From positions 496,001 through 560,000 of the forward strand of contig NBIV01000009.1 of the NCBI GenBank assembly GCA_003194525.1: 64,000 nt of DNA, given 5' to 3'. Source of the stretch: Gracilariopsis chorda (lineage: Eukaryota; Rhodophyta; Florideophyceae; Gracilariales; Gracilariaceae). Both the position numbers and the translations under genes were made by a program. Shown here in pieces: positions 5,397 to 64,000 of the stretch. The notes below the pieces were generated by a model. It was not told the DNA's origin, did no database searches, and was given only the letters and a program-made list of their open reading frames with translations. Every line of letters begins with the position of its first letter. The stretch's first letter is position 1.

Positions 5397-5461
5397 ATAC
5401 GTTTCCATCCGTTCGCAAAGTTACACAAAGATATACCCGTTTCGTTCTATCTTTCGATACA

Positions 5462-6754: not shown

Positions 6755-7073
6755 AACAGTCATTGCATAGATATCCTTTACTCATTGGTTGGGTATTAGT
6801 TGTCAGTGCGTGTATGTCTGTTGGGGGTGAAGAGTAGGGGAGGGGTTGAATGGGATGCGTTCTTTTGTCTTGTATCTGTACATATCTTGGGGACGGGATA
6901 CAACAAACGCATATGACGATGAGTTCTTGTACACGTTGACTTTCTATATTTATCCTTTTCTTTTCCGCTGTCAATACTTGACCACGTCTTGTTATTAAAA
7001 CTTAATGGCCTTCTGATGGCACATGCTTGCGAACACACAAGTGAGTCAAGCAAAAACCGTACAATGCACGCAG
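6755..7073. other. convergent 3' intergenic gap
   Basis: This 319-bp spacer lies between two convergent genes. It must hold both 3' ends. No hairpin or further ORF stands out. Confidence 0.5.
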
Positions 7074-8749: not shown

Positions 8750-9484
8750 TCATCGAGGAGGATCTTCAATCTGCTCCATCTCAAAAAGGGTGGCAAGAGC
8801 ACTGGTATGCGGTCGAGTAGCGTTGAGAAAGTCCTCCATACCAACCAAACACAGCTTGATGTCTTCGTCACTCAAACATTCGCTGTCACACAGATTGGTC
8901 AAAAACTGCTTTCGAGGCGGCACCAGTTGTAAGGCGCGTTCAAAAATCACCTTGGTCATGTGCGGGTGTCTCAAAGCTAACGTCTCTCGGTACGCCATGA
9001 TACACGCTTCCTTCAACTCCCGTTGCGCATCGTCCACCAAAAGCTGCACCATTCTCTGAATGAAGTGGAGAATCCTCTGGCTCCATAACAACGACTGAAT
9101 TCCAGAAGGCGCCCAAAATCGGGGCGGTGATTTCAACTCATTGACCACCAACTGTCGTAACGTGTGTGCGCGAAGTCGACGCGCGGAATTTCTCAACCCG
9201 TTGGTCTTGGCTCGAAAATCTCTACGCACGATTTCTGTGATGATGGGCGAGCCTAGAGCATCGAAGATGGTGAGGAAAGCTGTAATGGCGGTGTTGTAAA
9301 TGTCAACGTTGATGTCACCCTTTTGAAAGCTGCGTTGATTGGAGTGCGCTTCGTGAATGGCGTGATAGAACGGATGATTGATGCATGAAAAGGGGGTGTG
9401 GATGGCGTCGGTGGTGACGGTCAAGGTGCTCGTGGTGGACGATGCGGATGATGACAGTGTTTGTGAGTTGATGTTGGCACTCAT
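8750..9484 (-). CDS. glycolipid transfer protein (GLTP/ACD11/CPTP-fold) family protein
   Basis: The GLTP fold is an all-helical sandwich that shuttles a single glycosphingolipid or ceramide-1-phosphate between membranes in the cytosol. Using the ATG at 9484 (244 aa), residues about 60-200 follow the family. Visible landmarks are LTIFDALGSPIITEIVRRD at 71-89 with Asp89, the helix SLLWSQRILHFIQ with Trp134 and Arg137, and RHPHMTKVIF with His173, followed by ALQLVPPRKQFL. By eye, Asp89 and His173 match the conserved headgroup residues (human GLTP Asp48 and His140). The Asn position is occupied by Lys93, as in phosphate-binding CPTP/ACD11 proteins, while Trp134 resembles the sugar-stacking Trp of true GLTPs. 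An upstream in-frame extension to 9697 is low-complexity and less likely. The gene has a Ser/Thr-rich N-terminus. Confidence 0.82.
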   Translation of the reverse strand: MSANINSQTLSSSASSTTSTLTVTTDAIHTPFSCINHPFYHAIHEAHSNQRSFQKGDINVDIYNTAITAFLTIFDALGSPIITEIVRRDFRAKTNGLRNSARRLRAHTLRQLVVNELKSPPRFWAPSGIQSLLWSQRILHFIQRMVQLLVDDAQRELKEACIMAYRETLALRHPHMTKVIFERALQLVPPRKQFLTNLCDSECLSDEDIKLCLVGMEDFLNATRPHTSALATLFEMEQIEDPPR

Positions 9485-12400
9485 GGTGTGTATCGATGAT
9501 AGTGCGCCGCACGAAGGTGGAGAATGAATACGGCGGTTTGGTGTGCACAAGAGGCGAGGGTTAGCAACGATGGGCCCTTGGGGCGACGATGGTTGACAGC
9601 GAGGTAGCACACAACCGAAGCGCAACCGAAGCAACGAACCAAAAAAAGGAGGTCCCACGGGAGCGGCGAGAAGAAAGGGAAAAGAAAAAGCACTCAAGCG
9701 CTACGGTCGATGACACAAAGGCGCAGCGCGGGACGCATCGGAGGCTGGGGACGAGTCCGGCACGAGAGCAGCGGAGGCAGGCGCAAAGAAAAGGGGCACG
9801 GCCGCAAGCGAAGTCGCTCAAAAAACGGCTGTACGCAACAACGGCGCGCAGCTGCGCGAATGGTATGTAATTGGGTGCGCGTGTGGACGGTCGCCAATTG
9901 ACTTGCAGCTGATGCATTTGGTTTGTGATATTTAGAGGGCGGCGCGGCCAATGAGCGCGCTGCAAACGCAAAGGAGCATCGCGTTGGATTGGGCGGCATG
10001 CGCTGACACGACATGCGCGTCGTCTATTGTGTGATGTCCTAACTTTATGCGCCTGTTCACCGCCACGCGCCTCGCTGCTTGTGGCCGTTCAGATGATTGA
10101 GAGAGGCGGATGTGCTCTGCGCGTCTGCCACGTTGCATTCGTGTGCACGCGTGTGCGCGTGTGCTCGTGTGTGCGCTGTGAACACTCACGCACACGTGGC
10201 GGCATTTGAGGACGCTGCTTTCTCAAGTGCACGGCTGGCAAACCCTCCCCCCCTTTACAGGTATTGGCTATTACGGCTATCTTGCTAGAGCAATCCCAAC
10301 CCTTTCACCCTTCCCTAGCTAGGCTAGGCAAGACATACACACAGCCATACCAACAACTCATTGCTCGATATTGGTTTCGCGTTTACCAAGTAATGCAACA
10401 TCGTCACCCGCGAGCACTACAATTGCAAAACGCATTGCAAATGCGTGCTCAGGGAGCTCGAGAGCCACGCCAATCTGCAACGAGTGAATGGACTTGAGAT
10501 ATCGGCATCAGTTGGGAACCATGTAACCATCAACGTATCGGTGACCTTGCATATCGAAAAGTGAGCCATTCCTTTTCACCATCACGATGAATTCGTCACC
10601 GTGAGGCACCGTTGTACCTGCTCATTCAGTGCTTGACAGTGGTAAGCGATAGGTTGAGTTACTGCTGGTACTTATCATAGCATGTACACCTTTTGGTGCC
10701 ACAGCACGTTCCCCCTTTGATTTCATCATCGAACAATGTGGCGTATGACGCAATTGTATCTGCTGCAACCAACTGCCTTTTGGTACGTTTGGTACCACTT
10801 GTGACGGCAGCAGCTGGCCAAAGCGCACATTCGCAGTCTAATGCGCAGCAAACCGCTTCAGGGGCTCACGTAGCGAAAGGTGGTGAACGCACACATGTCC
10901 CAGCCATTTCTAACGTATCAACCTCGACCACCGTTGTTACAACGCCAACGGCTTCAGCAAAGCACGCACGTGAGCTACTTTACAGAGCCGGATTGGGTTT
11001 CAGTCCACATCCTCACCACAAGCAACATGTTTCTCTCTTCTTCATGCGCACCCCACGCGACGCTTGCATCTCTCTCTCTCTCTTTGTAAAGAACAGTCTG
11101 ACGGCACTCGAGTGCACGCGCCGCGCGCCGTGCAGCCGTCTCGCGAGCGGAGTGGCACACGAGTAACTTTACGCACGGCACAAGCTGCGCAACAACAGCG
11201 CGCACAGCAAGTGGAGCGCGCTCGCTGCGTGTCTCGGCGATGCCTTGGCGCGCGCCCCAGTCGCAATGGCTGCCTGCCGCCCCCGTGCAGCTGCGCCGCG
11301 CGTCGCTCCGCCGCAGCGCGTTATTCGCTTCCCGCGCGAATTTGTGCGCGCGTGAGACTGCCACTGCACCGCGTTTGCTGCTTCGTTGCTGCGGCAGAAG
11401 GCGGCGGCGCCAGCGGCGGCATGTGTGCCCCGTTCAGCAGCTGTATCTAGTATACCGCTTGCACTGTATGTAATCGTTTCGCACGAGAAGGTGTGACGCC
11501 TCTGCTCTGTTGATTCATCTGGTTGAATGTGTGGCTGTAAGCCGTACTTGCGTCGAAGCTCCCGTTCGGACAGAAGCTTCTAGACCGTTTCGGTAGTTAG
11601 AATAGTTTTATTTAGACTAGCTACTGAACCGTATCGGAATCTAGATGGCACGAACAAGATAGGCGAAGTAGAAGATTAGCAGTAAAGGGAAACACGGTTG
11701 TCCGTGTCCGGCTGCGTACAGAGGCTGTTGTCAGCTCTGGTCTTCTAAGTCTATTCTATCCTCTAACGTTCTAGTATATCCTACTACCGCTTGGAAACTA
11801 CCGATTACGGATTGCGCTTACCGCCGTGCCAACGCAAAAGAGCGCGTCATCGAAGAGATCGTCAATCTGCGTGGTATTCGTTGAAAGTGATTTGTAAACC
11901 GTGCACCATAAAATGCGAACAGCTCGTCACGTCGCCTCCTCTTTTCTGACCATCGGTGCAGCTCTGGCTCCGTCAGAGTGCTGTGTGCATATGATACAGG
12001 TACACCCGTACACAACCAGCTATAGTGATTGAAACTGTGCAGTAAAACGCACGCCCAACCCCCAAGTTGTGTTGGCTCGCAAGTGTGAGTGAGAGCTAAT
12101 TTTAATGGCACTTGTGACAGATGGCACGGCTGCATACTGCCAAACCACTATGGCTCAGCATCCGTGGTTGTGATTCGAAGGAGCGAACGACTGGCTGCAC
12201 CACCGCTGTACAAAGGGCACGTACCGTGCTGCAGCCGACGAGTTTGTGAGCAACACTGTACTATACGGCGATTGTGTGCAGGATTAACAAACGGTTCGTT
12301 GTCCGTTTGCGTGCGGTTTGTGTGGTTTGTGTGGTTGGTGTTTCTCTTGAAGCAGACTGACAGGTTTTACGGTGGGTGAGCTGCATGAAGATGGATGTCA

Positions 12401-13575
12401 AATGTATTAGTGGAAGTAGACTTGATCGTTTGATGAGAACGTTGCGCATTTTGGTTGGAAACTGATTTGGTGGTATTGGCAGATATGTACCACCTGTGGT
12501 ATGCAGTGCCATTTATCGAAGCGAAGCGAGTAGTACAGGTACGTGGAATGGAATTAAAGAATGGCTTGTGCCAGCCGTTGAGTGAAACGTGTGCGTCTTA
12601 CAGTCACAATGGAAACGATCAAAAAGGGCTGTTGCTGCGCGACGAAACATGCGCGTGCAGAGGTGATGCATCAGCCGATGTTTGCTGAGGAAAAGGGATT
12701 GGCCAGAGGGGGCTATGAGCTGGTAAGCAGTTGGGTGAAAACGGGTGAAAACGATTTGGTGGTTGAAGAAGGCATTTGACTTGATCGCTGAACGGGTAGA
12801 AGCAAAGCACTGAGTGCAGTTGAATTGTGCAACGTTTTGCAAAGCAAGAAACGCACGCATGAGCAGAAAGCGAGTTGGTTTGTGGAAGCAAAAGGCTGCA
12901 CGTGCATCCGAATGGAATGCGTTGAATCGATGCTGCTGCGCAAGCCGACTGTGTTTCCCCCGCCGCCAAACGTCTGCAAGCAGCGAATCATGCGAGCGCA
13001 AAGCACAACTCATACGCGTGAGACGCGATGAGGGACGCCATAAAGGCGGCTGTGTTTGAAGATGGCGTGGCACGGCCGCCTCAGAGCTGGTGCGCGGCGC
13101 ACATGCACAGTTTGTCATCAAAACGGCTCAACTCACGGTCGTATGTACGGTATGAAGCGCGCCCAGCAGCGGCGCACAAGATCACAAAAGCGCACGCAGC
13201 GCAACAACATATACAACAGTATAAAAACGAAGCAAAAGGCGCAATGCTTACAGCTGTCGGAGAGCGCTGATTGGGCGACGCGTGCAATGCAGCCGGAGCC
13301 GCGTTGTGGCACGTGTCACGAACCGTCTCTTGTTTTCACAACTCGCGAGAACAAAACGCGTGAGCAGCGCCGCACCGTCGCGCCGTTCGGTACCACCAGT
13401 ATGCGCGACGGCCGTGCATATGACACCCCAACGCCCATCGCCCGTGCGTGCAGCCGCTCCCACACGCCCGAGCGTCGTCCGGAACATCATCACGTCTCAT
13501 CTCCTTATAAGCCCCCCATTGCCCCGATCTCCACCGCCATCGTCTCACTTCACTTCCCTACCACCACTTCCTGAG
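9485..13575. other. 4-kb intergenic region without supported gene
   Basis: Many overlapping frames of 60-200 codons occur on both strands, but none shows a recognisable domain and composition is that of GC-rich noncoding DNA. A (TC)n run lies at about 11068-11086. A TATA-like CTTATAAGC at 13503-13511 sits 65 bases before the ATG at 13576 and may drive the MYB gene. Confidence 0.5.
13503..13511 (+). promoter_or_regulatory. candidate TATA box of the MYB gene
   Basis: CTTATAAGC lies 65 bases upstream of the ATG at 13576. That spacing suits a TATA box with a short 5' UTR, and it supports translation starting at 13576. Confidence 0.35.
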
Positions 13576-15836
13576 ATGGAGCCGTCACAAGTCCCCCCTC
13601 CGTTTGCAGTCCATCACCATCAAACTCGCCTCGGTAGCGCTTACCCGCCGCCCCCGTCCCCCTCAATAACCTTCCTACCAACCACTCCATTCCCCGTCCA
13701 TCGCACTCGATCCCCCCGTCTGCCTTCCGTTCTACCTATCCGTCACTTCACACCGTTCACCCCCTGGGTGTCCATCCCTCCCCCGATGCCTTCCCGCACC
13801 CCTCGGACCCCTCTGCTACGGACACCACACTCACTCCTCCATCGCTTCCGTCAAACCACTCTGCACCACCTCCGCATGCACACACCTTCACCATATCACC
13901 GCGGCAACCTACCACGTCGCCTCTACCGCCAGCATCTCCATACCATACCTCTCCATCTTCATATCCTCACCCATCACCCTCGTCACTCACGGCAGAACCC
14001 ACTTTGTACGACGTCCAGAAGCTCCTTGCAAACGGCTGTGTAATTGTCACCGGAGCCATCTACAACTCCGACGGCCATCGCATTTGCGGTGTGCTCAATC
14101 AGCATGACAAGCCCTGCCGTCGTATTGGCAAGTGCCCGTTTCACCTACACCGCTCTCCCCTCTCCGCATCCAACTCCATCAACGGTGTTGTGGATGCCTT
14201 CGGAAATGTCCCTGTATCCATCACCCCTGCAGCATCATCCCCGTCCATCGCGCCCTCGCTGCGAAATTTAACCGCCAGTCAACCTCAAATTCGTTCGCCT
14301 GCCATCCCTCGGAAAAGACAGTACAAGCATGGCTGGACACGCGAAGAGCATTATCTCTTCTTGGAGGCCTTGGCTATATATGGTCGCGGTTGTTGGAAAG
14401 AAACTGCCGCAATAGTGGGCACGCGATTGCCCACCCAGGTGCAATCTCACGCGCAGAAGTTTTTCAAGCGCGGTGAGAAGCGCAAGAAGGTGAAGCGCTC
14501 AATTCACGACCTGGGTTTGGAATCGAAGGAAATGAAGCAGGTATCAGCAAGATTGCGAGCTGATCCGTCGCCGACTGCCAGATCCTGTATCCAGAGAATC
14601 AACGCCGCGAAAAAGGAACATGAGCGCTCACAGCTCCTGCATTCAAACGGCCAACAACGTGTTCGTACGAGCTCTGCGAACCCCGCTCCCGTGGCCCAAC
14701 TTCACAGCTTGGTACAGTCATTCCCCACTCACTCGTCGGCGTCTCGTGCGCCTGCCGTATACAATACCGAAGCACAGACCTTTGCTGCCCCGCCACAGAC
14801 TGCACATTTTGTCCAACCTGCACCGTTTCCCCCCAGTTTTCAGCTCCAAACGGCTGCTCCGATCGATGCCGAACCTACAGCGGTGTATGGATGCAAGCCG
14901 TTCGCACTTCCTCAGCCGCCTCCTGCACTACCTCAGCCGCCTCCTACACTACCTCAACCACCGCCTGCTCTACCTCAGCCACCGCCTGCTCTACCTCAGC
15001 CACCGCCTGCTCTACCTCAACTACCGCCTGCTCTACCCCAACTACCGCCTGCTCTACCCCAACTACCGCCTGCTCTACCTCAACCACCGCCTGCTCTACC
15101 TCAGCCACCGCCTGCTCTACCTCAGCCACCACATCCACTTCCCATTCAAGCGCCAAGTTCGTTGATCCGTGCTCCTGCTATGAGGACTACATTTGAGGGC
15201 GTAGCAAACACTGCTACCAAGGGTACTGGTTTGGAAAGGGCAGCTGTCGACTCCGTGATGATAATGAATGGACATGGAAAGCGCCCTCTTCCGTCGGGCC
15301 CCACGCACGAGCCGTCACTGTACGAGCCCTTTGACAGCATACGAACCGGCTACATAGTCGGCATTCCACATCCGACTGTGCCAGCCACGAATGGTAGCAA
15401 TGTTGAGCAACAGGGACACGTTTTTACAGGTGCACATGCGGTCTATACCGCTGGACAACTCACCGGAGTGACTCCCCACATAATGGCATCAGACTCCGTC
15501 AAGCGAAGGCGAGTTGATGTGCACCATGATCCGTTTGCGTCTTGGGATCCCACGGCTGCTGATACTACAAACTACGGGCATGTGCAGGGTGCTAGGCGGG
15601 AGAGTGACGGCCGGTTTGCAGCTAGGGCTGGGATGCCCGCCGCACGAACCGGTGGCGTAGACATGTTTTCAGCAAGGAACAATGCAGCGCTTGCAGACCA
15701 GCTGCGGTTCCAACCTACGTTTGGCGGGGCCCAGCAGCAGAATGCGGTACGCGAAAGATTGTTCGGCAGTCAACACGCCGTCGCTAACGCGCGTTTTAGA
15801 GCAGGGTTTTCATATAACAATTTTAGCTCACGTTGA
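13576..15836 (+). CDS. SHAQKYF-type single MYB protein with N-terminal SCA7-like zinc motif; 5' end unresolved
   Basis: A nuclear transcription factor is likely. The main frame (open from 13638 to 15836) begins Pro/Ser/Thr-rich. It then has a compact Cys/His motif near 14087-14150 (CGVLNQ...PCRRIGKCPFH, spacing C-x9-C-x5-C-x2-H), the spacing of the SCA7/ataxin-7 zinc finger. At about 14326-14475 follows a one-repeat MYB: GWTREEHYLFLEALAIYG...GCWKETA...SHAQKFF, the plant-type SHAQKYF signature that binds I-box/TATCC-like DNA. A basic KRGEKRKKVKR stretch follows. Then come eleven tandem ALPQPPP units (14904-15134) and a disordered tail. No ATG precedes the zinc motif in the main frame, and a TAG at 13635 closes it. 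The only good ATG (13576) is in another frame, so an intron (for example GT at 13634 to AG at 13932, which restores phase) or an indel in a C-run is needed. Confidence 0.75.
14904..15134 (+). repeat. 21-bp in-frame tandem repeat coding for ALPQPPP units
   Basis: About eleven head-to-tail 21-bp units encode (A/T)LPQ(P/L)PP, all in the MYB reading frame. The middle three units share a CAACTACCG variant (ALPQLPP), showing that blocks of units were duplicated. Such tracts vary in copy number between strains and can form polyproline helices. Confidence 0.85.
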
Positions 15837-23376: not shown

Positions 23377-26300
23377 ATGCATCCTTCTCCCGAAACGCCA
23401 ACCCATCTCGTTGTGCATTATCACCGCCCGAATCATCATTATCACTCATGGACACTCACCCTTCCCAACGCCACATATGCCCAGCCCGTGCAGAACGCCC
23501 TCACCTCGTACGGTGCTCTATTTCGTATCCCTTTTCCACTGCCCGCCTCCGTCACACTGCACCCAACCCATCCCAAGCTAGTAGATGCTCCACCCCGTCA
23601 GTGTGATCTCACCTCGCTCACTGCCGTTCATCGTGAACTCCATGTCTTTCTTCTGGAAGCTCATCCCCAGGCAGTTCGCTCCCCATCTCTGTTCCAAACG
23701 CATCCAAATCCACGCTTGTTCGCCATCTCCGTTCCAGATCCTCACGCATGGCTCATCGTATACGCCCGCGATACGAAGCGAGACGTTTTCCCAGCCTCTG
23801 CTCACTATCGCCAACGTAACCACCCTGCTTTGTTTCTCCTTGATACCAGCACACTTGCCCGCCAAATAAGGCTTACAATACAACATCATTACCACCGACC
23901 TGCTCCAGCAACTGCGCAGCTCTCCTACCCTGCGTTTCGTGCTCCTTACCCCAAACACGTCATGCTATCGGCTCACCCTCTGAAAGCTCAACAAACAGAC
24001 CAAGATTTGTTTGCTGCCATTACCACTCAAGCGCTTCAATGCAGGTTTCTTTCCCGACAAGTACAAGGACCAACCGTTCTCGATTCTCCCCTTATTCGCA
24101 CCCCGAAATACAAGCATCTAGTCCTCTTTTACTATCGTCTTGACAGATCTACTCCCATCGTATCACTCACTGTATCAGCTAGCGTGAAGCTCGAAGCCGT
24201 CCCTTTGCCCTCTTCTTACCATACTTCGAAAGCCTTCACCATTGATATTTCTGCTCTTCCAGAGAGTCATTCCTCCCATTCCCAGCTCTCCATTACTCCA
24301 GTTCGTTCTAATTCTGGTGTTGTCATTCACGAAAACAAGCTCACATGGCGCCCGTCACTTGGCCTTCGCGTCATTTATGCACAGTCTTTCCCTCACCTTT
24401 TGACTCCTGCACAAACCGATCTTACGCTAGTCTATCACCGATACGACAGTGAATGGAGCGACTGGGAATTACATGTATGGAGCAAGCCACAAGACGGTTA
24501 TCCTGCAGTTTCGGCCAAGTTAACACCCACCAGACCAGTGAAACCAGGACAAGTAGTATTTCATCTTGTTGGTTATGTGTTTCCCTATCAAGCTCAAGTA
24601 TTTGTGGAGCCTGTGCGAATGGCCTTGCACCCTGGCCACGCTACTACTGATGAGTTTGGCATTACCGTAGTTGGTGAACCGTATCGTGATGCATGTCGTC
24701 GAGATGTGATTCGTAAGTGGACTAGCGCACAGCCTCCCTCTCAAGTCATCCATCTTGTGCAGGGTGATTCTCGCATATACGCACATCCTCCGGACCCCGA
24801 TACATTTAACGCACAACGAAGGTTTCGCTTGCGATATCGCCGCTTCTTGCCATCAGACTATGAAGGTTGGGACCTGTGGACATGGGATCAAACGGATCCT
24901 GAGTCTCACAGAATTCCGCTCACGCCTGTGGCTGAGACCCGGGACTGGGCTGACTTTGTTGTTGATCGCGCTGACTATGGTAGTGGCAAGATTATATCCA
25001 TACTTCCCAGAAGAGGTGGTGATGCATGGCTTGAACAAGACGAGTTCGTGCGACAGTGGAGTTTGTCGATGTTGGAATCGTTGGATACTTCTATCGTCAA
25101 GCACCATGAGCCTCTGAAACAACGTGCCGACGATCATGATGACCTACCTACATTTCTCATCACGCAAGAGACGAAGCTCGTCCTTCGTCATCTTGATGAT
25201 GCGAGAACAATGCTTGATGCTTACGTTGATTCGGATAACTCCATTGTCGTGAGTGCGCCTGTACCCTTGCAATGGCTGATGCCACCGCAGCTCACGCAAT
25301 CGCAACCTAATGAAGATATGGTTATTAAAATTGCGCAGAGACCAGTTCAAGGATTGTTAGATGTCGGAAAGGAAGCCGATGACATTGAAGGAAAGAGCTT
25401 ACGTTTTCTAAAGGCAAAACAGGTGACTCCCATAAAGACTGGGTATGTGTTTGACAAATCCGTCGCACATTTTGAGGAGGACTTCCTTGTCGAGAATGTT
25501 GTTGTGTCTGTTCCGGGTTTTGTTAGCGTCGCTTTGCACTGGGAAACGCACGAGAATGAAGACAAATACTTGTACGAAGGTTCTCTCGGGTGGGAGTACT
25601 CTTCGGCGAAGTGCATCTTCAGATGCTTTGCACCGATCGCTAGTTTAGTAAGCGTCGTATTATACGACGAGCCGACAGGGGATGCAGGAAGAACGGTTGT
25701 CCCAATGCGTCGTATACCGCAAGGCTGCTGGAAGGTCACTATCATAGAGGATTTAAAGGGAAGATACTACAAATTGCTTGCTGAAGGAGGAAACAAACGA
25801 CTGTTCCCGGGGGTCGAAGTGATTGATCCTTACTCTAGATGTAACACTGGGCACACTGGGCGAGGTCTGGTGTACGGTATAGATTCCACAGAAGTTTATC
25901 CACGACCAAATGTCAAACCTTCAGCGGCAATCGTGTACGAACTGCACATTCGTGATATCACAATAGACAAGTGTTCCGGTATTCGACAACGAGGAAAGTT
26001 TCTGGGGCTCACTGAAAGGGGAACGGGTCTACCGAACAAGGTTTCTAAGTCAGAATCGAAGGTTCTTACTCAGTGGCCTCAAGAACGTATGCGGGGCGTC
26101 AACGACGAGTTTTCTTTGCTTGATAAGTTCTCGACAGGACTCGACCATATTGTGCAGATGGGCGTAACAGCTGTTCAAATCATGCCTATTCAGGACTTTG
26201 ATAATGACGAGTCAGACGATGGTTCATATCGGTGGGGATATATGCCAGTGCACTTTAATTCTCCGGATGGCTGGTACGCCTCGTCGACCCACACTGTTGC

Positions 26301-27906
26301 AAGAGTTGTGGAATTCAAGCATCTTGTTAGTGCTCTACACAAGGCCGGCTTGAAGGTAATCATGGACGTGGTCTACAATCATACTGCCGAGGATAGCAAT
26401 GAACTCAACTTGGATGCACGATTTTCCTTCAATGGCCTCGCCCCACGCTACTACTACCGTACTTGTGGAAACACTCCTATTGCTCATACTGGCGACAGAA
26501 CATGCGGAGTTCGAGAACATCCTAAACCACACTGTGGAGAATGCTACTCGAACGGTTCAGGTTGCGGGAATGAATTCCGAAGTGAATCTCCGATGGGAAG
26601 GAAATTTATAATTGATTCTCTCAAGTTCTGGGCTATGGAGTATGGTGTCGATGGATTTCGGTTTGATCTCTTAGGTTTGATTGACCTGGAAACGATTCAT
26701 CGAGCAGCAACTGAACTAAAGAGTATTCATCCACATATACTTGTTTATGGAGAACCTTGGATTGGGGGCCTCTCCCCAATAAAAATCACAGACAAGGGCT
26801 CCCAGCGTTCTAAAGGCTTTGGAGTTTTCAACGATACATTCCGAAATGCTGTTCGAGGTTCTCCCTTTGATACAGAGGAGACGTTCATCATGGACGGTGG
26901 GAGACTTCCCGAAGTGAAGGGCGGAATCATTGGCTCTGTTGACCTGTTTACTGATTCTCCACTAGAAAGCCTCAACTACGTTGAATGTCATGATAATCGT
27001 ACTTTGTGGGACCATTTGACATACTATACTCGTTCTAGAACAGATAATATCAAGTTTAATGAAGAAGATCTGAGACGGATGCACAGGCTGGCCGCTGTTC
27101 TTGTTCTTACCTCACAAGGAGTTCCATTCATTCAAGCAGGTCAGGAAATGTGCCGAACAAAGTTTGATGACGAGAACTCGTATGAATCTTCGGACGAGAT
27201 TAACATGATTCGATGGATGACGAAACTGAACGAATGGTCGACGGTTCAGTATTATAGGGGTCTCATTCTGCTGCGCAGATCTCACCCTGAAATCTTCTGC
27301 CTGGAAACTGCGGACGAAATTCATAAGAAGGTTGCTTTCTACGAAGATTGCGGTCTTTGCGTTCCGGAGAGATGCATTGCTTACAGAATCAAAGGCAACC
27401 CGGAGAGATTGTTTAGGCAACTGCAGGAAGAGGAACCGGACGTAGATAGAGATTTTCATCGAGAGGAATCTCTGCGGTGGTCGGAGGTTGTTGTTCTGCT
27501 TAATGCCACACCTCTTCATGTGACATTTGAGTTGCCGGGAAGAAAGACGGACACTCTATGGATGCAGACTGTCGACTCCTCCGCTGCAGGTACTCGCATA
27601 ATTCAAGGACCGCATGTAGGATCGGTCACTGTTAGCGGTCGGTCAGCAGCGGTGTTACGTCGTGCATCACCGACAGAACAAGAAGTGGGACAGCTTGAAA
27701 TGCGCCTTTCATCAATATCAGATGCTTACTCTTCGTTTCATGGGGATGATCCGTTAACCAGATATACGGTTGGATTAGACCCTCGCCCAACAGTAGAAGA
27801 CGTGAGTCAAAGGAACGACCTTATTTCTCAAAGGTTAGAATTCGATCGGAGAAGATCTGTGAATCCTAGTCAGGCTACGCAGGATTCTGATATGATCACC
27901 GAATGA
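23377..27906 (+). CDS. pullulanase-type starch debranching enzyme (GH13) with several N-terminal CBM41-like modules
   Basis: It hydrolyses alpha-1,6 branches of starch; in red algae the substrate is cytosolic floridean starch. The 1509-residue chain begins with CBM41-like starch-binding modules, the first at residues ~8-100 (LVVHYHRPNHHYHSWTLTL). Similar modules follow around 330-420 (YHRYDSEWSDWELHVWS) and 485-570 (RFRLRYRRFLPSDYEGWDLW), and a degenerate one may lie at about 245-310. A CBM48-like region follows at ~700-800. The catalytic barrel carries YRWGYMP, the VVYNHT motif, nucleophile Asp1097 (DGFRFDLLGL), acid/base Glu1126 (YGEPW) and transition-state Asp1206 (ECHDN). A Cys-rich insert of about 25 residues precedes the SNGSGCGNE motif. 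There is no clear signal or transit peptide, consistent with a cytosolic enzyme. It is convergent with trigger factor. Confidence 0.93.
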   Translation: MHPSPETPTHLVVHYHRPNHHYHSWTLTLPNATYAQPVQNALTSYGALFRIPFPLPASVTLHPTHPKLVDAPPRQCDLTSLTAVHRELHVFLLEAHPQAVRSPSLFQTHPNPRLFAISVPDPHAWLIVYARDTKRDVFPASAHYRQRNHPALFLLDTSTLARQIRLTIQHHYHRPAPATAQLSYPAFRAPYPKHVMLSAHPLKAQQTDQDLFAAITTQALQCRFLSRQVQGPTVLDSPLIRTPKYKHLVLFYYRLDRSTPIVSLTVSASVKLEAVPLPSSYHTSKAFTIDISALPESHSSHSQLSITPVRSNSGVVIHENKLTWRPSLGLRVIYAQSFPHLLTPAQTDLTLVYHRYDSEWSDWELHVWSKPQDGYPAVSAKLTPTRPVKPGQVVFHLVGYVFPYQAQVFVEPVRMALHPGHATTDEFGITVVGEPYRDACRRDVIRKWTSAQPPSQVIHLVQGDSRIYAHPPDPDTFNAQRRFRLRYRRFLPSDYEGWDLWTWDQTDPESHRIPLTPVAETRDWADFVVDRADYGSGKIISILPRRGGDAWLEQDEFVRQWSLSMLESLDTSIVKHHEPLKQRADDHDDLPTFLITQETKLVLRHLDDARTMLDAYVDSDNSIVVSAPVPLQWLMPPQLTQSQPNEDMVIKIAQRPVQGLLDVGKEADDIEGKSLRFLKAKQVTPIKTGYVFDKSVAHFEEDFLVENVVVSVPGFVSVALHWETHENEDKYLYEGSLGWEYSSAKCIFRCFAPIASLVSVVLYDEPTGDAGRTVVPMRRIPQGCWKVTIIEDLKGRYYKLLAEGGNKRLFPGVEVIDPYSRCNTGHTGRGLVYGIDSTEVYPRPNVKPSAAIVYELHIRDITIDKCSGIRQRGKFLGLTERGTGLPNKVSKSESKVLTQWPQERMRGVNDEFSLLDKFSTGLDHIVQMGVTAVQIMPIQDFDNDESDDGSYRWGYMPVHFNSPDGWYASSTHTVARVVEFKHLVSALHKAGLKVIMDVVYNHTAEDSNELNLDARFSFNGLAPRYYYRTCGNTPIAHTGDRTCGVREHPKPHCGECYSNGSGCGNEFRSESPMGRKFIIDSLKFWAMEYGVDGFRFDLLGLIDLETIHRAATELKSIHPHILVYGEPWIGGLSPIKITDKGSQRSKGFGVFNDTFRNAVRGSPFDTEETFIMDGGRLPEVKGGIIGSVDLFTDSPLESLNYVECHDNRTLWDHLTYYTRSRTDNIKFNEEDLRRMHRLAAVLVLTSQGVPFIQAGQEMCRTKFDDENSYESSDEINMIRWMTKLNEWSTVQYYRGLILLRRSHPEIFCLETADEIHKKVAFYEDCGLCVPERCIAYRIKGNPERLFRQLQEEEPDVDRDFHREESLRWSEVVVLLNATPLHVTFELPGRKTDTLWMQTVDSSAAGTRIIQGPHVGSVTVSGRSAAVLRRASPTEQEVGQLEMRLSSISDAYSSFHGDDPLTRYTVGLDPRPTVEDVSQRNDLISQRLEFDRRRSVNPSQATQDSDMITE

Positions 27907-37130: not shown

Positions 37131-37265
37131 GGCCAACTCCTGCTCGCAGGCAGTGCCACCTGGCACTGGTAAAAGTCATGTATGAACATGTATGAAAGCC
37201 GGTGCGACCGGGAAAATTAACAAGTCCCCGGATGTCCCTCTTACGAGGCATGCTCTTCAATGCCC

Positions 37266-38312
37266 ATCCCGGTTGCCTTACCTTCCCCGTCCCTACTCTT
37301 TGAGGACGACGACACAAAAAGGGGGGAGCTCATCCCCTTCCAACCAAGCAAGAACATAAGTTCGACGTGGTCAAACCCGAAGTATGGAAAAGCAAGTCCG
37401 TATAGGAGAAGAATACGAGAACGAAGGGGAAAGAATTACCGACTTTCTCGAACCTTTTGCGGATGTTTGGGATGGGCACCTGGGCTCCATCTCTATCTCC
37501 AAACACCGCATACACCTGGAAGGGGTTCAAAGCACTTCTTCCAGATGCCTTACCGAGAGGGACAAGAACGGCGCGAACTGGAAAGAAAAGAGGTAAAGAA
37601 GCCACGCTGTGCAGTTGTAATAGAGCCCTCGTCTACCAAATGGGCAAGTACGGTCGTGTTCGCGACAAAAACTAATGACACTCTACGCTTCTGCGCGGAT
37701 TATCGTCACATTAATGCGTTGAATTTCTGGAATGCTTACCCCATACTAGTAGACGAGTTTGCCGCATGGAGCACAGCCAGTATCCGTCCGCAACAGGACC
37801 AAGACTATCTGATAACGAAATGTGACAAGCTTTGTAATGCCAAGAATCCTAATGGTGATCCTTCCTGCCCAACTGATGTTCGAGGTGCAAAGCACAATGC
37901 ACGAAATATTCAATGCACTATTGCAGAAAAGCGCCTTGAAAATGACATAAATGCATCTACAGAATCCAGTGATAACTCAGATGAAGAGAAAAATGAGACG
38001 GACGAAGGAACTGTTGGTGCACGGAAGAAGCGTCGCCCTATAGGACAGATTGGAGTCCATGGCAAGAAGCCCAAGACAGATGAGGTTCTAATAAAAAGTG
38101 TAGAGTCGATGACCGAGTTTATGGGAATTTTTGCCAACTCATTTGCTTCACCGGTGTCTGGTTTAAACGACCAAGAGGTAATGATCACGAATGTGGTCAA
38201 GAAATGTAACATTCGAGATGCATTGGTATCGGATCACCGAATGATAAGTTTAGTCGATGACGACATTCATAGTTTTCGGCTACAGTACCTGGCTGTCCAG
38301 CAAGGACTATGA
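37266..38312 (+). pseudogene. Ty3/Gypsy reverse transcriptase relic fused to an unknown acidic/basic tail
   Basis: In one frame LEPFADVWDGHLGSISISK and HRIHL (about 37440-37520) give the start of a Gypsy reverse transcriptase. A frameshift near 37520-37545 moves the match to the frame PYREGQERRELERKEVKK, VIEPSSTKWASTVVFATK and LRFCADYRHINALNFW, ending near YPI-x-VDE (about 37760). The catalytic YxDD region is absent. The same frame then continues for ~170 codons (37795-38312) into sequence unlike RT: an acidic Ser/Glu/Asp stretch, nuclear-signal-like KKRRP and KKPK, and a helical C-terminus. This junction is either a chimera or two unrelated remnants in frame. I do not recognise the tail. Confidence 0.6.
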
Positions 38313-41480: not shown

Positions 41481-41535
41481 CAGCCTCTGAAAGTTCCTCT
41501 AAACGAATCTCGTTTCGAGATACTTTTAGAGGCTG
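41481..41535. repeat. nested inverted repeat
   Basis: CAGCCTCTGAAAGT at 41481-41494 pairs with ACTTTTAGAGGCTG at 41522-41535 (one mismatch). The enclosed loop carries a second hairpin, ATCTCG TTT CGAGAT. Confidence 0.6.
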
Positions 41536-41595
41536 CGCTAATGGTTTCCAGTTAAAGGTGTTTTACAGACGAAGTACAGATGCTTGACTCTAAAA

Positions 41596-41638
41596 TTCTG
41601 GCTCTAAATTTCTGGCTCTAAATTTCTGGCTCTAAATT
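41596..41638 (+). repeat. short tandem repeat, three TTCTGGCTCTAAAT units
   Basis: Three consecutive near-perfect copies with one-base spacing differences. Confidence 0.7.
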
Positions 41639-42369
41639 TCGTTTGAGAGGCACAATAAAGATGCTTTGAGGGACAGTGAAAACTGAACGGACAGTTTCAG
41701 GTCATCCGTTGGACTGGGCCACGTAGTCCATCCATTTTGTCGTGTGAAGGCGGTGCGTGTCTTCCCCGCGTCTTATCTTGTACGATCAAGATAGTGTAGG
41801 GCGCGGCGTTGAAATGTTTTAGATAGTAGGCAACGGACTGTTTGGGGCGCCAGCGTCTCTTCGCTACGCTACAAAGCTCTTCTCTAGAGAGAAACTTCTG
41901 ATACCCAAAAACCTGCTATCTTCCCCTTTGAGGTGAAGGAGCTGCGTAGGTAGCAGTATATTTATTGCGGAGATGCGCGCATCGTCAGCGGCTTACGCCG
42001 GCGTAAGCGGTGCAAATACACCTAAAAATATATCTCACTGGGTGGTTGTCTGCTTTTGCATAAATGGCACATCGACACATTTACTGCTGTATAAACACAT
42101 TAAAACGGAGGCTACAATGCTTCATGAAGCGGTCGCACTCCGTCTGCTTTGTAACTTTAGGGTGAGTCGGGCGATATGTAACGCTTGCTGTCTTTCAGGA
42201 TATGAGACGTGAGGCGAAAGTCGATGTAGGACAAGAGGTCTACTGCCTAGTAGGCAGTGCCTACCATTCAAAACGGCGAGTGCAAAGTGCAAGAGATTTC
42301 TTAGACATTGCAGGTAACTTTATGTCACGATAAACGATCTCGAGAATACAGAATAGTGATGCCTGCATA

Positions 42370-42429
42370 CGGCAGACAATCGGATGGGATGCAGACGGCA
42401 GACAGTCCGATGGGATGCAGACGGCAGAC
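42370..42429 (+). repeat. 26-bp tandem repeat, ~2.3 copies
   Basis: Units at 42370-42395 and 42396-42421 (CGGCAGACA..., GATGGGATGCAGA) differ at two positions. A partial third copy ends at 42429. It lies about 140 bp upstream of the AUDH-like TATA box. Confidence 0.8.
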
Positions 42430-42565
42430 TTATCGATTAATCAGCAAGCCCTCCACCCAGCTTTAAAGGGTAACTAATAAGGGATTAAACTGTGACGTGT
42501 TCTCGAGTTCAAAAAGATGTTAACATTTTGTCGAACATATACCTTTCTTACGACGAGATTCACTG

Positions 42566-42573
42566 TATATAAA
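42566..42573 (+). promoter_or_regulatory. TATA box of the AUDH-like gene
   Basis: TATATAAA lies 141 bases before the ATG at 42714. Transcription would start around 42595-42600, at the beginning of the 19-bp tandem repeat. Confidence 0.55.
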
Positions 42574-42595
42574 TGCTAGAAGTCTTCCTCGGATT

Positions 42596-42652
42596 GCAAC
42601 AGGTGTTGAAGTCCGCAACAGGTGTTGAAGTCCGCAACAGGTGTTGAAGTCC
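42596..42652 (+). repeat. 19-bp tandem repeat, three perfect copies, in the 5' UTR/initiator
   Basis: GCAACAGGTGTTGAAGTCC occurs three times without a mismatch (42596-42614, 42615-42633, 42634-42652). The perfect identity implies recent duplication or selection. Position relative to the TATA box suggests repeated initiators or a leader motif. Confidence 0.85.
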
Positions 42653-42713
42653 GCAAAAGCGTTACAGGTCTACCGCACTTCCCCATCTTCACCGCAGAAA
42701 GCGTATCCAGAAG

Positions 42714-44945
42714 ATGCATATTTGGGGCGTTTCACCAACTTTCGGCAGGGTCGACAAGACCTTGACCCCTGAGTTCGAAGAGAACATCATTCAAGATCAT
42801 CGCGAGGATGGATATTGGGTTGACAGTTTTGATGTGAATGGAAGCGGGTTACCAGACATCATCGGATATGGTCTAAACTCCGGTGAACTGACTTGGTTCG
42901 AGAACCCGAACGCATCTCACCTCGCACCTAAAGAATGGACAGCAAGGAAAATTGCACAAGTAGATGAACCGGTTGGTATGTATCATGCTCCGATAGCTGG
43001 TACTGCTTACGAAGATATTGTCATATGTTCTCAGTACGGAGGTACCATGGACACCATTGACACGGAAGGCGGTAAGCTACATTGGTACCAGAACCCTCTT
43101 GGAAATGGTGGTACCGTTGATGACGTCTGGGTGAAGCGGTATATCGGCAAAGCCGCCGGTATGCATCGAGTAGTAGTTGGGCGCTTCACACAGACTGAAG
43201 AGCTCGAGGTAATGGGGTGGCCCATCTGTGGCCAGCCCGGCAACACCCACTCGGCTATCAAAGTGAAGCTTTGGCAGAAGCCTGAAGACATACTCAATGC
43301 TTCAATGTGGAATGAGACGCTGATTACAGAGACATACTTTCACGTTGTACATGATTTGGCGATGCGAAAATACCGCGCTACGACAGGGGACCTTCGCGAC
43401 TCTTTGATTGTTGCCTCCGAAGAAGGCCTAACTTGGGTATACTTCGATGAAGGATGGAACTTTAAGCACATTGCCGACGGCGTACCTTCCTCGACGGAGT
43501 GTGGATATTGGGGCTGTCAAAATGTCGATGTGGGGCAAATCGGAGAAGATCCTTTCGCTTTCATCGCTACATCTGGGCCATTCCATGGCAATGTGGCCAT
43601 GGTTTACATCAAGCAACGGGGTGGCCTAGGCTCAATCGAGGGAGCCGAGTGGAAGGAATATACTCTTGATGTATACGGGAACAATGGACTGCCGATACGC
43701 GACGGAAACGGAGACAAACATCACGTTCTGTGCGCAGACATGGATGGCGACGGAGATGACGAAATACTCTTCTCACTCAGAGACCAAGGAGTGGTGTACT
43801 TCAAGATCGACGACGCAACATGTGGAGAATTTCTACAATATCACACTTCGACAGCATCAGCAGCAAGAGCCACCGTTGGGGATTTTAACGGTGATGGGTC
43901 TTTAGACTACGCTACCATGGGGTATGGGGTCAAGGATTATTACGAGGCGGAGGACGTACAGTTGAATGTGTACTACAACAGTTTCGTGACGCCTTCGAAG
44001 AAACGCCTATTCAACACCCAAGAGAATGTTGCTGGCACCATTCAGCTTTCATGTACCAAGGACTCGGAAGTTCAAGTGGATATCTTTCCGGACCGCAAAG
44101 CTTTATACCAATACTTGATAACGATTTACCATTTTAGGCACACCATCGCGTACGTACCAGCTCTTAGCTACCTGTCCAAGGACTACATCAAGCGTGGTAC
44201 CATGATTAAGGTCATTTCCGGATATGTGCAAGTGACGCATCAGGCGAACACTACCCCGGAGACTATCGGTAACACCTGCACACCACAAGGGTCATTGAAT
44301 TTGACAATCCTCAGTGATGATGAGAAGATTCTGGCTGTTCAGGAAACTGTGCTAATGATCTTTCAACCAGACTTCGATCCGACCACAGAGGACTTCCCCA
44401 TCGTCAGGAACGCGGGGCAGGTGAACGAATCGATCGAGTTCCAGGAGGTTTCTGGCTTGAAGGAATTTGCATTCAAACCCTACAGTGATTCCATGAGCTT
44501 CTGTAACATGACAGGTTTCACCATTAGGAAGAGGCGTTTCAAATTGTGTCATATTCAGTTCTGGTTAGCAGACCGAGGAGTCGACTGTGGTATCCATGAC
44601 CACTCCGACCTGAACGCTCAGAAAACATTCTGCGAAATTCATGCCTGCATGATCAATGGCACTGGCAGTGGAGCGATGTATCGCAGTCGCGAGCCGTACG
44701 TAATTCCGATTGGACAGATTGACCGTGAGAAAATGAAGAAGATTGTTGTTCCTTCCGGGTACGAGCATGGACCCCTCTGGAACTGGGATGAGAACGGTCG
44801 TCCCCTCCGAAGAGAAGATGGGAGTGTGGTGTATCGTGCCCATGCATGGATAGCGGGAGATGGTGATCCCTTGAATAAGCATCAGTCGATGGACTTCTGG
44901 ACAGCCTTCGAACTGAACCCAATCATTGTTGATTCTAGTTTGTAA
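42714..44945 (+). CDS. aldos-2-ulose dehydratase/isomerase-like (1,5-anhydrofructose dehydratase-type) protein
   Basis: Fungal AUDH dehydrates glucosone and 1,5-anhydro-D-fructose toward cortalcerone or microthecin. It is built from a seven-bladed propeller and cupin domains. This 743-aa protein shows the same plan. Residues ~1-440 are an FG-GAP/VCBS propeller with calcium-binding-like loops (DVNGSGLPDIIGYG near 40, DMDGDGDDEIL from 342, DFNGDGSLDYATMG near 388) and Trp/Tyr-rich blades. The C-terminal ~300 residues include a cupin metal site HDH at 628-630 and EIH at 641-643, preceded by CHIQFWLADRG. No signal peptide is evident at the ATG. Red algae form 1,5-anhydrofructose from starch by alpha-1,4-glucan lyase, which makes this sugar the likely substrate. 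It has its own TATA box and repeated leader. Enzyme identity is by domain plan and motif memory, not alignment. Confidence 0.75.
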   Translation: MHIWGVSPTFGRVDKTLTPEFEENIIQDHREDGYWVDSFDVNGSGLPDIIGYGLNSGELTWFENPNASHLAPKEWTARKIAQVDEPVGMYHAPIAGTAYEDIVICSQYGGTMDTIDTEGGKLHWYQNPLGNGGTVDDVWVKRYIGKAAGMHRVVVGRFTQTEELEVMGWPICGQPGNTHSAIKVKLWQKPEDILNASMWNETLITETYFHVVHDLAMRKYRATTGDLRDSLIVASEEGLTWVYFDEGWNFKHIADGVPSSTECGYWGCQNVDVGQIGEDPFAFIATSGPFHGNVAMVYIKQRGGLGSIEGAEWKEYTLDVYGNNGLPIRDGNGDKHHVLCADMDGDGDDEILFSLRDQGVVYFKIDDATCGEFLQYHTSTASAARATVGDFNGDGSLDYATMGYGVKDYYEAEDVQLNVYYNSFVTPSKKRLFNTQENVAGTIQLSCTKDSEVQVDIFPDRKALYQYLITIYHFRHTIAYVPALSYLSKDYIKRGTMIKVISGYVQVTHQANTTPETIGNTCTPQGSLNLTILSDDEKILAVQETVLMIFQPDFDPTTEDFPIVRNAGQVNESIEFQEVSGLKEFAFKPYSDSMSFCNMTGFTIRKRRFKLCHIQFWLADRGVDCGIHDHSDLNAQKTFCEIHACMINGTGSGAMYRSREPYVIPIGQIDREKMKKIVVPSGYEHGPLWNWDENGRPLRREDGSVVYRAHAWIAGDGDPLNKHQSMDFWTAFELNPIIVDSSL

Positions 44946-45881
44946 GAATTGAGAAATGGTATATGGAGGTGTATACCATGTGCTCATTTGGTGCAGGTAC
45001 ACTTTTACATGACGTCCTCATGGCTGCTTTAGACGAAGCCTGTCGTGCATGGCTTTTTTAGCCTTCAACTTAAGCACCGAAGGTGTAAAAGCCACATGCA
45101 AAACGTGATAATATCTTTCGTTTGTACTTGGAACTAGGCCCATCATGCTCACCGTGATTAGTAGTAACCCAGCTGTAAAAGCATCATATTACCTTTGTCC
45201 TACAACTGAGTCCGTCTTCGTGACGACGACGAAATGCGGAGAGGGTGAGGTATGTGAAGCAGAATTGCAGCCATGTTGAGCGTGCTGGCACATGAACAGG
45301 TTTTAGAAGTTGCAGCAAGTTGACGTCAAAACGTTTAGAGTTTTAGCTATGGACCCGCGGAGCAAGTAATGTTACATGAAAGGGAGAAGAACAAAAAATA
45401 TTATTTCTAAGAACCTACAACGAGCGCGACCCATGCAGCCGTGGCGCCTCAACGCCCATGAAACACCAAGCGCAATTCATGGGACGAACCGTTACCGCCA
45501 CCCCAGCGTCGATGCACCATCAGAACAAAATATTCGTTTCCGTCTCGGGTGCATTCACCGAGCGAGCACAAAAATCGCAATAAACCATAACAAAACAAAC
45601 TCATAGTTAGTGTGTGAACCATATGAACAGTTAGGGAACATGATCAAGGGAGTGACATATTCGATTGCAACGAAAACTACCACCGAGAGATAAACAATGC
45701 CATACAGCACTTATATCTCATGAAGAATTCCATTCGACTTCTTGAAGAGCAAAACAGTTTCCATCAAAACATACGTTGCATGTTGAAACAGAAAAACCTG
45801 TGTCACAAAGAAGCGGGGAATCGGCTTTGCGACGATTCACAGCAAACCGAAAAAGAAGTGGACAAGGGTACATGATGTTCC
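44946..45881. other. 3' intergenic region, AUDH-like / EamA (convergent)
   Basis: No supported gene. Both flanking genes end here. Confidence 0.5.
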
Positions 45882-47075
45882 TCAGCTTTCTTTCTTACCA
45901 GTGCTGGAGATGACTGCACCGGAAACAATCATAGCAGCTCCCGCCATTCCGAGAGAGGTAAGTCGTTCACCCAGCATGAGCGTGGCAACAACGCTGGCCC
46001 ACAATGGTTGTGCGGCAAACAAAACGGCCGCTTCAGATGCTGGAACCGCCTGTTGGCCCTTAGTTTGCAGCCAGGAAGCGGCCGCACTGACAAGCACGCC
46101 AGCCCACAAAACAATCATCAAGTTGAGAAAGACAGCCGTGGGTGTCCACAAAACCGGCGCAGCAGCGGCGACGGAAGTAGCCGCAGCTGCACTAACAGTG
46201 CTTCCACTTTGAAAGGCTGTCTGTGCCCCCAGCCAAATGAATGAAAGCGCCGCCTGAGAGCAGACTTTGATGGCAACTAGAGCGCTGCTCTTCTTTGTAT
46301 TACGTGCGTGGTACGACGTGCGAAGCATGTATACTGTAAGAATAACTGCTGATAACACCTCAAGAAGATCTCCAAGTGGTCTGAGAGTGGCGGCTGCTGC
46401 AGCGGCTGGAGCAGCTGTGAGGGTGAGAAGGCCAACGCCAGCCAGGGCACACGCCGCACCCATGGTTACTTGCGGAGTTAGTTTTTCAATGCGTAAAGCG
46501 GCTGCTGCCAATGGCACAAGCACAGTTGACATTTGCTGCAAGAAGGCGGCGCGAGAGGCGTCGGTGTACCTCAATCCCAGCAACTGAAGTAAATTAGCAA
46601 CGAACATTAGAAGACCGAGCTCCGCGCCGGCTCGAAAAAGCCGTAACAAGGGTCGGGGTGAAGAGCGCATGGAAGGGATATCTCGGATGAGGACGGGTAC
46701 GAAGAAAAGAGAGGAAACGAGAAGTCGGGCAGCGTTGAAATGGGACGGTGATAGGGCTACGGGGAGAACGTAGAGCAGTTTTGCGCATGCTAGAAATGTA
46801 GCGGTGAGAAATGGAACGAGACAAAGAAGCAGGCGCGCTGGGATTGTTGCTTTGATTGGACCGAATGCTAGGGGGATGGACGAGGGTTGACGGGGGAGGA
46901 TGGGTCTCTGAGCACGTGATGGGGTAGCAGCGGAGAGCTCTGGTGCGGCGACTCGACGGATAATTGGGCGACGTGGAAGGAGCGAGGGTCTGTTCGGCTG
47001 AAGCGATGGAAGGGTGTGGCGACGAAGCGAATGGTGGAGCAGAGTAGCTCCGACGAAGGCGGCTGAGTTCGTCAT
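45882..47075 (-). CDS. EamA/DMT-family membrane transporter, probably plastid-targeted
   Basis: Drug/metabolite-transporter superfamily protein of two EamA halves, about ten membrane helices. From the ATG at 47075 (397 aa) the first ~85 residues are Ser/Pro/Arg-rich with Phe at position 7, resembling a red algal transit peptide. The hydrophobic part starts about residue 88 (LLLCLVPFLTATFLACAKLLYVLPVAL). It includes SPSHFNAARLLVSSLFFVPVL, typical of the first half, LRYTDASRAAFLQQMSTVLVPLAA, and the second-half counterpart AVPASEAAVLFAAQPLWASVVA, the classic EamA end-repeat motif. The substrate cannot be told. The in-frame extension to 47282 is unlikely. Confidence 0.85.
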   Translation of the reverse strand: MTNSAAFVGATLLHHSLRRHTLPSLQPNRPSLLPRRPIIRRVAAPELSAATPSRAQRPILPRQPSSIPLAFGPIKATIPARLLLCLVPFLTATFLACAKLLYVLPVALSPSHFNAARLLVSSLFFVPVLIRDIPSMRSSPRPLLRLFRAGAELGLLMFVANLLQLLGLRYTDASRAAFLQQMSTVLVPLAAAALRIEKLTPQVTMGAACALAGVGLLTLTAAPAAAAAATLRPLGDLLEVLSAVILTVYMLRTSYHARNTKKSSALVAIKVCSQAALSFIWLGAQTAFQSGSTVSAAAATSVAAAAPVLWTPTAVFLNLMIVLWAGVLVSAAASWLQTKGQQAVPASEAAVLFAAQPLWASVVATLMLGERLTSLGMAGAAMIVSGAVISSTGKKES

Positions 47076-62674: not shown

Positions 62675-64000
62675 TCAATGTGAATCTCGCAAAGTTCTCG
62701 CACTAACATTCCTGTCCTGATTATCTATGAATGTTTCCTGCACTGAACTCGCTGAGCCGTTGACTATTGACAGAGCTGGAGTAGATGGTGTAGAATGTAT
62801 TGAACTAGCCCCTGCCACACCAGCATTCAGACTGCTTCCGTCTCCCATTCCATCACACCAAGACTTCACAGCGGCGATTGCCCGATCGAGTGCCTTTGCA
62901 GTGAATTCATGTCGGTGTTCGCCTCTAGAATACTCCAGCGCTTCCCGAATAGGCATCCATTGCCGCCTTCTATTGCGCCCCACGGTAGTACCAAGCTCTT
63001 TGGCAAGAAGAACAACTGTTTGGAAAGCTGATTGCTTTTGTCCTTTGTCCACTTCAATCCATCCGAGGTTGGCTAATATTTCGTAACTTGAAACTCCCGC
63101 CTTCTCTCTTGCAATTCGAATCGTGGCGTCGATCTGAGTCTCGCCCTCGTTCTGACCACCCTTCGGGACAGCCCATGGATCGTCTGGCTCACGAGCAACC
63201 ATCAATACCTGAATAGAATCAAAATCTCCCTCGCCTTCAACAAATCGTATTGGTACCACACCGACAGCGACCTTGTCAACCATCTTAGTGTTACCCTTGA
63301 TATTGATGACATATCGAGGTCGAGATCTGCTCCGCTTGGTTGGTTTCTTTGCTTCAACATGACTTTCTGAAGTAGGAAGGGCGCTTCCATTTGTGTCAGC
63401 CGGAAACTTGAGCAGTCCCTCCGAAGCTTCGTTATCCATGAAACTCGGGTCTTCAGGGCTAGGAACAAAGTCAAATTGTTCTTGGCTTCTCTCATCGGCA
63501 TCACTGTCACTGCTACGGTTCTCAGCTTTCTTAGACTTTGATAATTCCTTCGCAGAAGGAGCAATAGAAACGGAGACGGGGGGTGACTTGGGCGCCGGAA
63601 AGCCTTTGTAGTAATGACCGTCTGACGCCATTCGCCACACCCACCTACCATCATCGATAAGCTCGAATGCCTTGGATAAGCGCTTTCGCAGGTAAGCATC
63701 CCTGATAGGAACGATTACCTCAACGCGCCCCGTGAGATTCCTTGTTCGCCAGTCCGCTGAACCAATGAAATATTTACCCTCTCCACCGGCATGGAAGTAG
63801 TATACTCTGCGATGCTGCAGAAGCTGTCCGACCCAAGAGTAAACATTGATGTTCTCACTCAAGCCCTTGATGCCTGGACGAATACGACAAGCAGCCCGGA
63901 CAATAAGATCAATACGAACACCCGCTTGCGAAGCGTCATATAGTTCCTTAGTAATCTTCTTATCTGAGAGCCCATTCATCTGACAGGCAATTCTAGCCGG
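62675..64000 (-). CDS. polyphosphate kinase (PPK1-type) C-terminus fused to a degenerate Nudix domain; partial at right edge
   Basis: PPK1 makes polyphosphate from ATP. The window shows its C-terminal part: GLSDKKITKELYDASQAGV, the RPGIKGLSENINVYSWVGQ segment, QHRRVYYF (His codon at 63812-63814, matching by memory the E. coli second catalytic His region) and GSADWRTRNLTGRVEV. After an acidic Ser-rich linker (about 63590-63290) comes a Nudix domain (63290-62880). It has the diphosphoinositol/polyphosphate-hydrolase-like WAVPKGGQNEGET, but the Nudix box reads G-x5-E-x7-R-I-A-R-E-K-A-G-V. Two of the usual glutamates are replaced (Ile and Lys), so hydrolysis may be lost. The frame is open to position 64000; the N-terminus lies beyond. 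Confidence 0.85.
   Translation of the reverse strand, partial: PARIACQMNGLSDKKITKELYDASQAGVRIDLIVRAACRIRPGIKGLSENINVYSWVGQLLQHRRVYYFHAGGEGKYFIGSADWRTRNLTGRVEVIVPIRDAYLRKRLSKAFELIDDGRWVWRMASDGHYYKGFPAPKSPPVSVSIAPSAKELSKSKKAENRSSDSDADERSQEQFDFVPSPEDPSFMDNEASEGLLKFPADTNGSALPTSESHVEAKKPTKRSRSRPRYVINIKGNTKMVDKVAVGVVPIRFVEGEGDFDSIQVLMVAREPDDPWAVPKGGQNEGETQIDATIRIAREKAGVSSYEILANLGWIEVDKGQKQSAFQTVVLLAKELGTTVGRNRRRQWMPIREALEYSRGEHRHEFTAKALDRAIAAVKSWCDGMGDGSSLNAGVAGASSIHSTPSTPALSIVNGSASSVQETFIDNQDRNVSARTLRDSH

Follow-up and report, generated by a model that had tools for sequence, protein, structure and literature searches.

A red-algal gene whose enzyme probably makes antimicrobial microthecin from a sugar released from starch

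An intron-less gene of the red alga Gracilariopsis chorda encodes a protein whose membership of the aldos-2-ulose dehydratase (AUDH) family is well supported by its sequence. Judged from its homologues, it probably encodes a bifunctional, zinc-dependent dehydratase/isomerase of the AUDH type, which would convert 1,5-anhydro-D-fructose into microthecin. The AUDH family and the microthecin chemistry of algae are both known, and a gene linking them appears to be new in the open-licence literature; the word 'dehydratase' does not occur in the main text of the Gracilariopsis lemaneiformis genome paper (PMC5970526). The gene and its two parts lie in the window, i.e., the whole stretch of 64,000 nucleotides analysed here, as follows.

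42714 to 44945, plus strand: AUDH-family open reading frame, 743 amino acids, single exon, ATG to TAA.
42765 to 43988, plus strand: beta-propeller part, residues 18-425, aligned with residues 19-435 of 4a7k and also with whole bacterial propeller-only proteins.
44184 to 44918, plus strand: AUDH_Cupin part, residues 491-735, of which 593-734 align with residues 592-731 of 4a7k.

The frame is not a product of chance, because the longest stop-free run in 200 base-shuffles of positions 41501-46000, read in three frames, was 171 codons. The gene sits in a 590-kb contig of a 91.3-Mb genome assembled in 1081 contigs, in which a single gene of this family was found. According to Pfam, its neighbours encode an organelle-type IF-2, a trigger factor, a pullulanase-type enzyme and an EamA transporter, and bacterial or fungal contamination is an unlikely source since the gene stands among ordinary eukaryotic genes. 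Two further frames of the window are recorded here in their own right. At 62675-63979 on the minus strand, a single frame holds both a polyphosphate kinase C-terminal domain and a NUDIX domain (Pfam), its gene being truncated close to the end of the window, and a frame of 350 amino acids at 37260-38312 on the plus strand contains a stretch that resembles a retrotransposon reverse transcriptase by eye, with no Pfam match at E<=0.001.

The preliminary description had placed the protein in the AUDH family by eye, on the basis of a propeller-plus-cupin plan. Both the plan and the assignment are confirmed, because two curated Pfam models, each far above its cut-off, and a solved fungal enzyme match the protein: AUDH_beta_propeller (PF22301) at residues 119-301 with E 4.8e-45 and 154 bits against a cut-off of 27, and AUDH_Cupin (PF18637) at residues 491-735 with E 8.2e-44 and 150.7 bits against a cut-off of 25, covering profile positions 52-308 of 308. 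FG-GAP_3 repeats were also matched in Pfam, and a search of NCBIfam gave no match. In the PDB, the sole phmmer match at E<=1 is the fungal aldos-2-ulose dehydratase 4a7k (E 3.3e-94, 319.9 bits), with an alignment that spans algal residues 18-425 and 593-734. The poorly conserved residues 426-592 are omitted from it, though the Pfam cupin model starts at residue 491. AUDH propellers are seven-bladed according to a published account, and seven blades would be expected in the algal propeller from its homologue only; an AlphaFold2 model from the single sequence had a mean pLDDT of 32.7, too low to read a fold.

When the propellers of the alga, the fungus, Streptomyces and Persicobacter are aligned, the algal histidines H151, H213, H291 and H336 are invariant and correspond to fungal residues 155, 215, 295 and 337. 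H151, which aligns with His155 of 4a7k, is kept in four of the four. In their 2012 abstract, Claesson et al. reportedly propose His155 as the proton-moving residue and place zinc in both the propeller and the cupin of fungal AUDH. We take fungal His155, the counterpart of algal H151, to be the catalytic candidate, and we infer from the alignment that the remaining invariant propeller histidines include zinc ligands. The cupin residues H628, H630, E641, H643, E684, H685 and H710 are common to the alga and the fungus. The H-x-H...E-x-H cupin site that had been noticed by eye is indeed present as H628-x-H630...E641-x-H643, with all four residues invariant in 4a7k. Candidate metal-binding histidines and glutamates are thus kept in both parts in the alignment with 4a7k. 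It is rather unlikely, judging from these sequences, that the cupin of the algal protein was not kept as a second active site: the propeller is a separate gene in bacterial relatives and the beginning of the cupin region aligns poorly, but the metal-type residues argue that the second site was kept, as does the C-terminal cupin part, which is 41.9% identical to its fungal counterpart across 136 aligned residues.

The proposed AUDH-type reaction would run as follows. The alga's own alpha-1,4-glucan lyases would release 1,5-anhydro-D-fructose from floridean starch. In the propeller, the C2 ketone would be polarised by a zinc whose ligands are conserved histidines, most probably three from among H151, H213, H291 and H336; H151 as the counterpart of fungal His155 would shift a proton, and water would be lost from C3/C4 to give ascopyrone M, which the cupin metal site would then isomerise to microthecin. 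The mechanism is carried over from the fungal crystal-structure work that Claesson et al. are said to have published in 2012.

The upstream enzyme of this route is present in the same genome. Eight GH31 matches were found, three of which are intact glucan lyase frames, each of about 1090 codons from ATG. The sole PDB match of each at E<=1e-50 is 2x2h (2462, 1767 and 1903 bits), which presumably originates from G. lemaneiformis; in the best match, L005, two residues out of roughly 960 compared differ from it. A fourth copy, L007, is interrupted by stops. The intact lyases are on contigs C123 and C340 and the AUDH-family gene is on contig C9; the four lyase loci (L003, L004, L005 and L007) are distributed over C123, C340 and C48, and two of the intact ones are about 52 kb apart on C123. 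According to the literature, 1,5-anhydrofructose is the precursor of antibacterial microthecin made by some red algae (PMC6003095) and is metabolised to microthecin by fungi and red algae (PMC2974679), and the title of a 1996 paper concerns microthecin from G. lemaneiformis formed from 1,5-anhydrofructose (Broberg et al., cited in PMC6003095). The suggested route from floridean starch to microthecin-type products gains support from the three lyases; a GH31 glucan lyase in this genome had been named beforehand as a check, and the check was positive. Because of these lyases and the reports of microthecin from red algae, the AUDH-family frame is, on sequence grounds, the leading candidate for the microthecin-forming step. 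Sequence identity of 30-40% does not fix a substrate, and the enzyme might act on another red-algal keto-sugar or clear reactive 1,5-anhydrofructose instead of making an antimicrobial, but this is decidedly improbable as the source enzymes of the known substrate and the known product both occur in the same kind of alga.

Codon usage gives a hint that the AUDH-family gene and the lyases belong together. The relative codon use of the gene correlates with that of the pooled lyases at r 0.939, compared with 0.912-0.931 for each lyase against the other two, and the highest value among 32 other frames of at least 300 codons is 0.906. Six of these 32 are compatible with lyase codon usage at the 5% bound, as the AUDH-family gene is; the comparison was unplanned and its background is not a random set. 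High expression was considered as the cause of the shared profile and rejected, since GAPDH is strongly biased yet has a low r: one of two GAPDH frames is in the final set (r 0.631, ENC 39.3), and in an earlier set the values were 0.631 and 0.572. The frame with r 0.906 (L009, 22-2754, contig C104) encodes a glycosidase-like protein of 910 amino acids, of the alpha-galactosidase type by eye.

Taken on sequence, a microthecin role is favoured by the Pfam and 4a7k matches, the invariant histidines, the cupin residues, the three lyases, the single family gene and the lyase-like codon usage. Against it would count a propeller identity of only 33.9%, the absence of a 4a7k match over residues 425-593 and the lack of a counterpart to about 165 C-terminal residues of 4a7k; besides, gene and lyases do not adjoin.

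The region before the gene contains the following elements.

42364 to 42437, plus strand: 26-bp imperfect tandem repeat, upstream of the TATA-like box.
42566 to 42574, plus strand: TATA-like box TATATAAAT, 148 bases before the ATG, a consensus match only.
42596 to 42656, plus strand: 19-bp direct repeat in 3.2 perfect copies, probably in the 5' leader, with the near-palindrome CAACAGGTGTTG.

A short tandem repeat with a 14-bp unit is also found further upstream, at 41588-41640. The repeated leader had been read as a sign of special regulation. The repeat is real, and the regulation is unsupported and was rejected. An exact 17-mer of the repeat occurs at three places in the genome, all in the leader of this gene, and with up to two mismatches it occurs at 13 places versus 17 for a reversed control. 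In the 1-kb regions preceding the three lyases, the shared 10-mers number 2, 0 and 4 (means after shuffling, 3.65, 3.62 and 3.44), and the leader RNA fold has a z of -0.56, with 53 of 200 shuffles as good. The debranching enzyme pointed out 15 kb away is likewise real, a pullulanase-type enzyme (Pfam) at 23377-27906 on the plus strand, 14.8 kb upstream, and uninformative, with unrelated genes in between. This enzyme has a long N-terminal region followed by a PUD domain at residues 483-558.

The lyases begin with N-terminal leaders (e.g., MFSTLAFVAPS), which we take to resemble red-algal plastid transit peptides, whereas the AUDH-family frame has no such leader and just 17 residues precede the start of its homology. 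There is little room for an extra exon because the TATA-like box is 148 bases upstream and no ATG occurs within 42600-42713. Since only the lyases carry leaders, the AUDH-type enzyme and the lyases may reside in different compartments, which is a difficulty for the route as well as a prediction of it.

Relatives of the propeller without a cupin are found in bacteria. A tblastn search of plasmids gave propeller-only relatives in three of 72,556 records, in Streptomyces sp. NBC_01022, Streptomyces sp. NBC_00464 and Persicobacter sp. JZB09, whose whole chains match the algal propeller and Pfam AUDH_beta_propeller. The cupin part alone gave no match among the same 72,556 plasmid records, and none of 50,697 phage records was matched. 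Scans with short peptide patterns, which do not show absence, gave 18 and 89 pattern matches in genome_contigs (six and two patterns) and 85 in viral_contigs (two patterns), with none confirmed. Propeller identities are 39.7-40.6% between the alga and the bacteria, 33.9% between the alga and the fungus, and 39.4% between the fungus and Streptomyces; the algal gene is not especially fungal because its identity to the bacterial propellers exceeds that to the fungal one. In Streptomyces, the gene next upstream of the propeller encodes 256 amino acids with a sub-threshold AUDH_Cupin match (19.5 versus 25 bits, E 7.3e-4), and blastp aligns it weakly with the algal cupin (9.6e-5 for these two sequences). 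By sequence, the two neighbouring genes resemble the fused enzyme in two-gene form.

L011 (NZ_CP108675.1), 7108-7878 and 7971-9224: Streptomyces cupin-like gene, then propeller gene.
L012 (NZ_CP107901.1), second Streptomyces plasmid: same pair at the corresponding place.

The Persicobacter plasmid (L013, CP012860.1) carries at 4417-14839 an uninterrupted series of genes for a GMC oxidoreductase, a ferritin-like protein, the AUDH propeller, glycogen-debranching and GH63 types and a xylose-isomerase-like TIM barrel, perhaps a bacterial sugar-dehydration cluster. A tentative wider picture, which might well prove wrong, would be a complete, self-made route from starch to microthecin that is split by compartment, with plastid-type leaders on the lyases and none on the AUDH-type enzyme, and whose shared codon profile would reflect one functional set. 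The fungal and algal enzymes might then derive from separate bacterial propeller and cupin genes such as those of Streptomyces, which would have fused either before they reached each lineage or independently of that.

Fungal AUDH accepts both 1,5-anhydrofructose and glucosone. By analogy with wood-decay fungi, where the gene for pyranosone dehydratase adjoins that for pyranose 2-oxidase (PMC4256170), the algal substrate might be glucosone and the product cortalcerone. The GMC oxidoreductase of Persicobacter, encoded 1.6 kb before the propeller gene, has a weak pyranose-oxidase match in favour of this, but the pyranose oxidase model of NCBIfam matches none of seven algal GMC frames at E<=0.001, and a search with the Persicobacter oxidoreductase found no match, which is uninformative taken alone. 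The models that the seven frames do match, each below its cut-off, are those for choline dehydrogenase and mycofactocin-type GMC proteins; the survey covered open frames with Pfam GMC_oxred_C, so that a divergent or spliced oxidase could escape it. A glucosone substrate is accordingly very improbable.

If microthecin is indeed the product, the gene supplies the missing step for a compound that earlier work had described in such seaweeds. It is a single, intron-less candidate that can be directly expressed and assayed, and the role of the anhydrofructose pathway in farmed seaweed becomes testable.

Among known systems, AUDH of Phanerochaete chrysosporium (pyranosone dehydratase; 4a7k/4a7y/4a7z) is, like the algal protein, a single chain in which the cupin follows the propeller in matching register, and the two propellers are 33.9% identical over 398 aligned residues. 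The two proteins share the His155 counterpart with three further propeller histidines, and the H-x-H...E-x-H and E-H of the cupin. On the other hand, the algal protein has four extra residues between H-x-H and E-x-H, its middle stretch (residues 425-593) has diverged so far from 4a7k that phmmer gave no match, and it has no counterpart of the last approximately 165 residues of the 900-residue 4a7k. The match stops at residue 731 of 4a7k, and the algal chain ends nine residues past it, about where the fungal cupin ends. The missing part is presumably the lectin domain, which is taken as an accessory feature because neither Pfam AUDH model needs it. The bacterial propeller-only proteins, unlike the algal one, have no cupin in the same chain. 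The alpha-1,4-glucan lyase (2x2h) is a different enzyme from the AUDH-family protein and its genes are unlinked to it on the contigs, whereas in the route the two are connected: isozyme 1 of this GH31 lyase is the upstream enzyme, and a near-identical copy of it is encoded in this genome.
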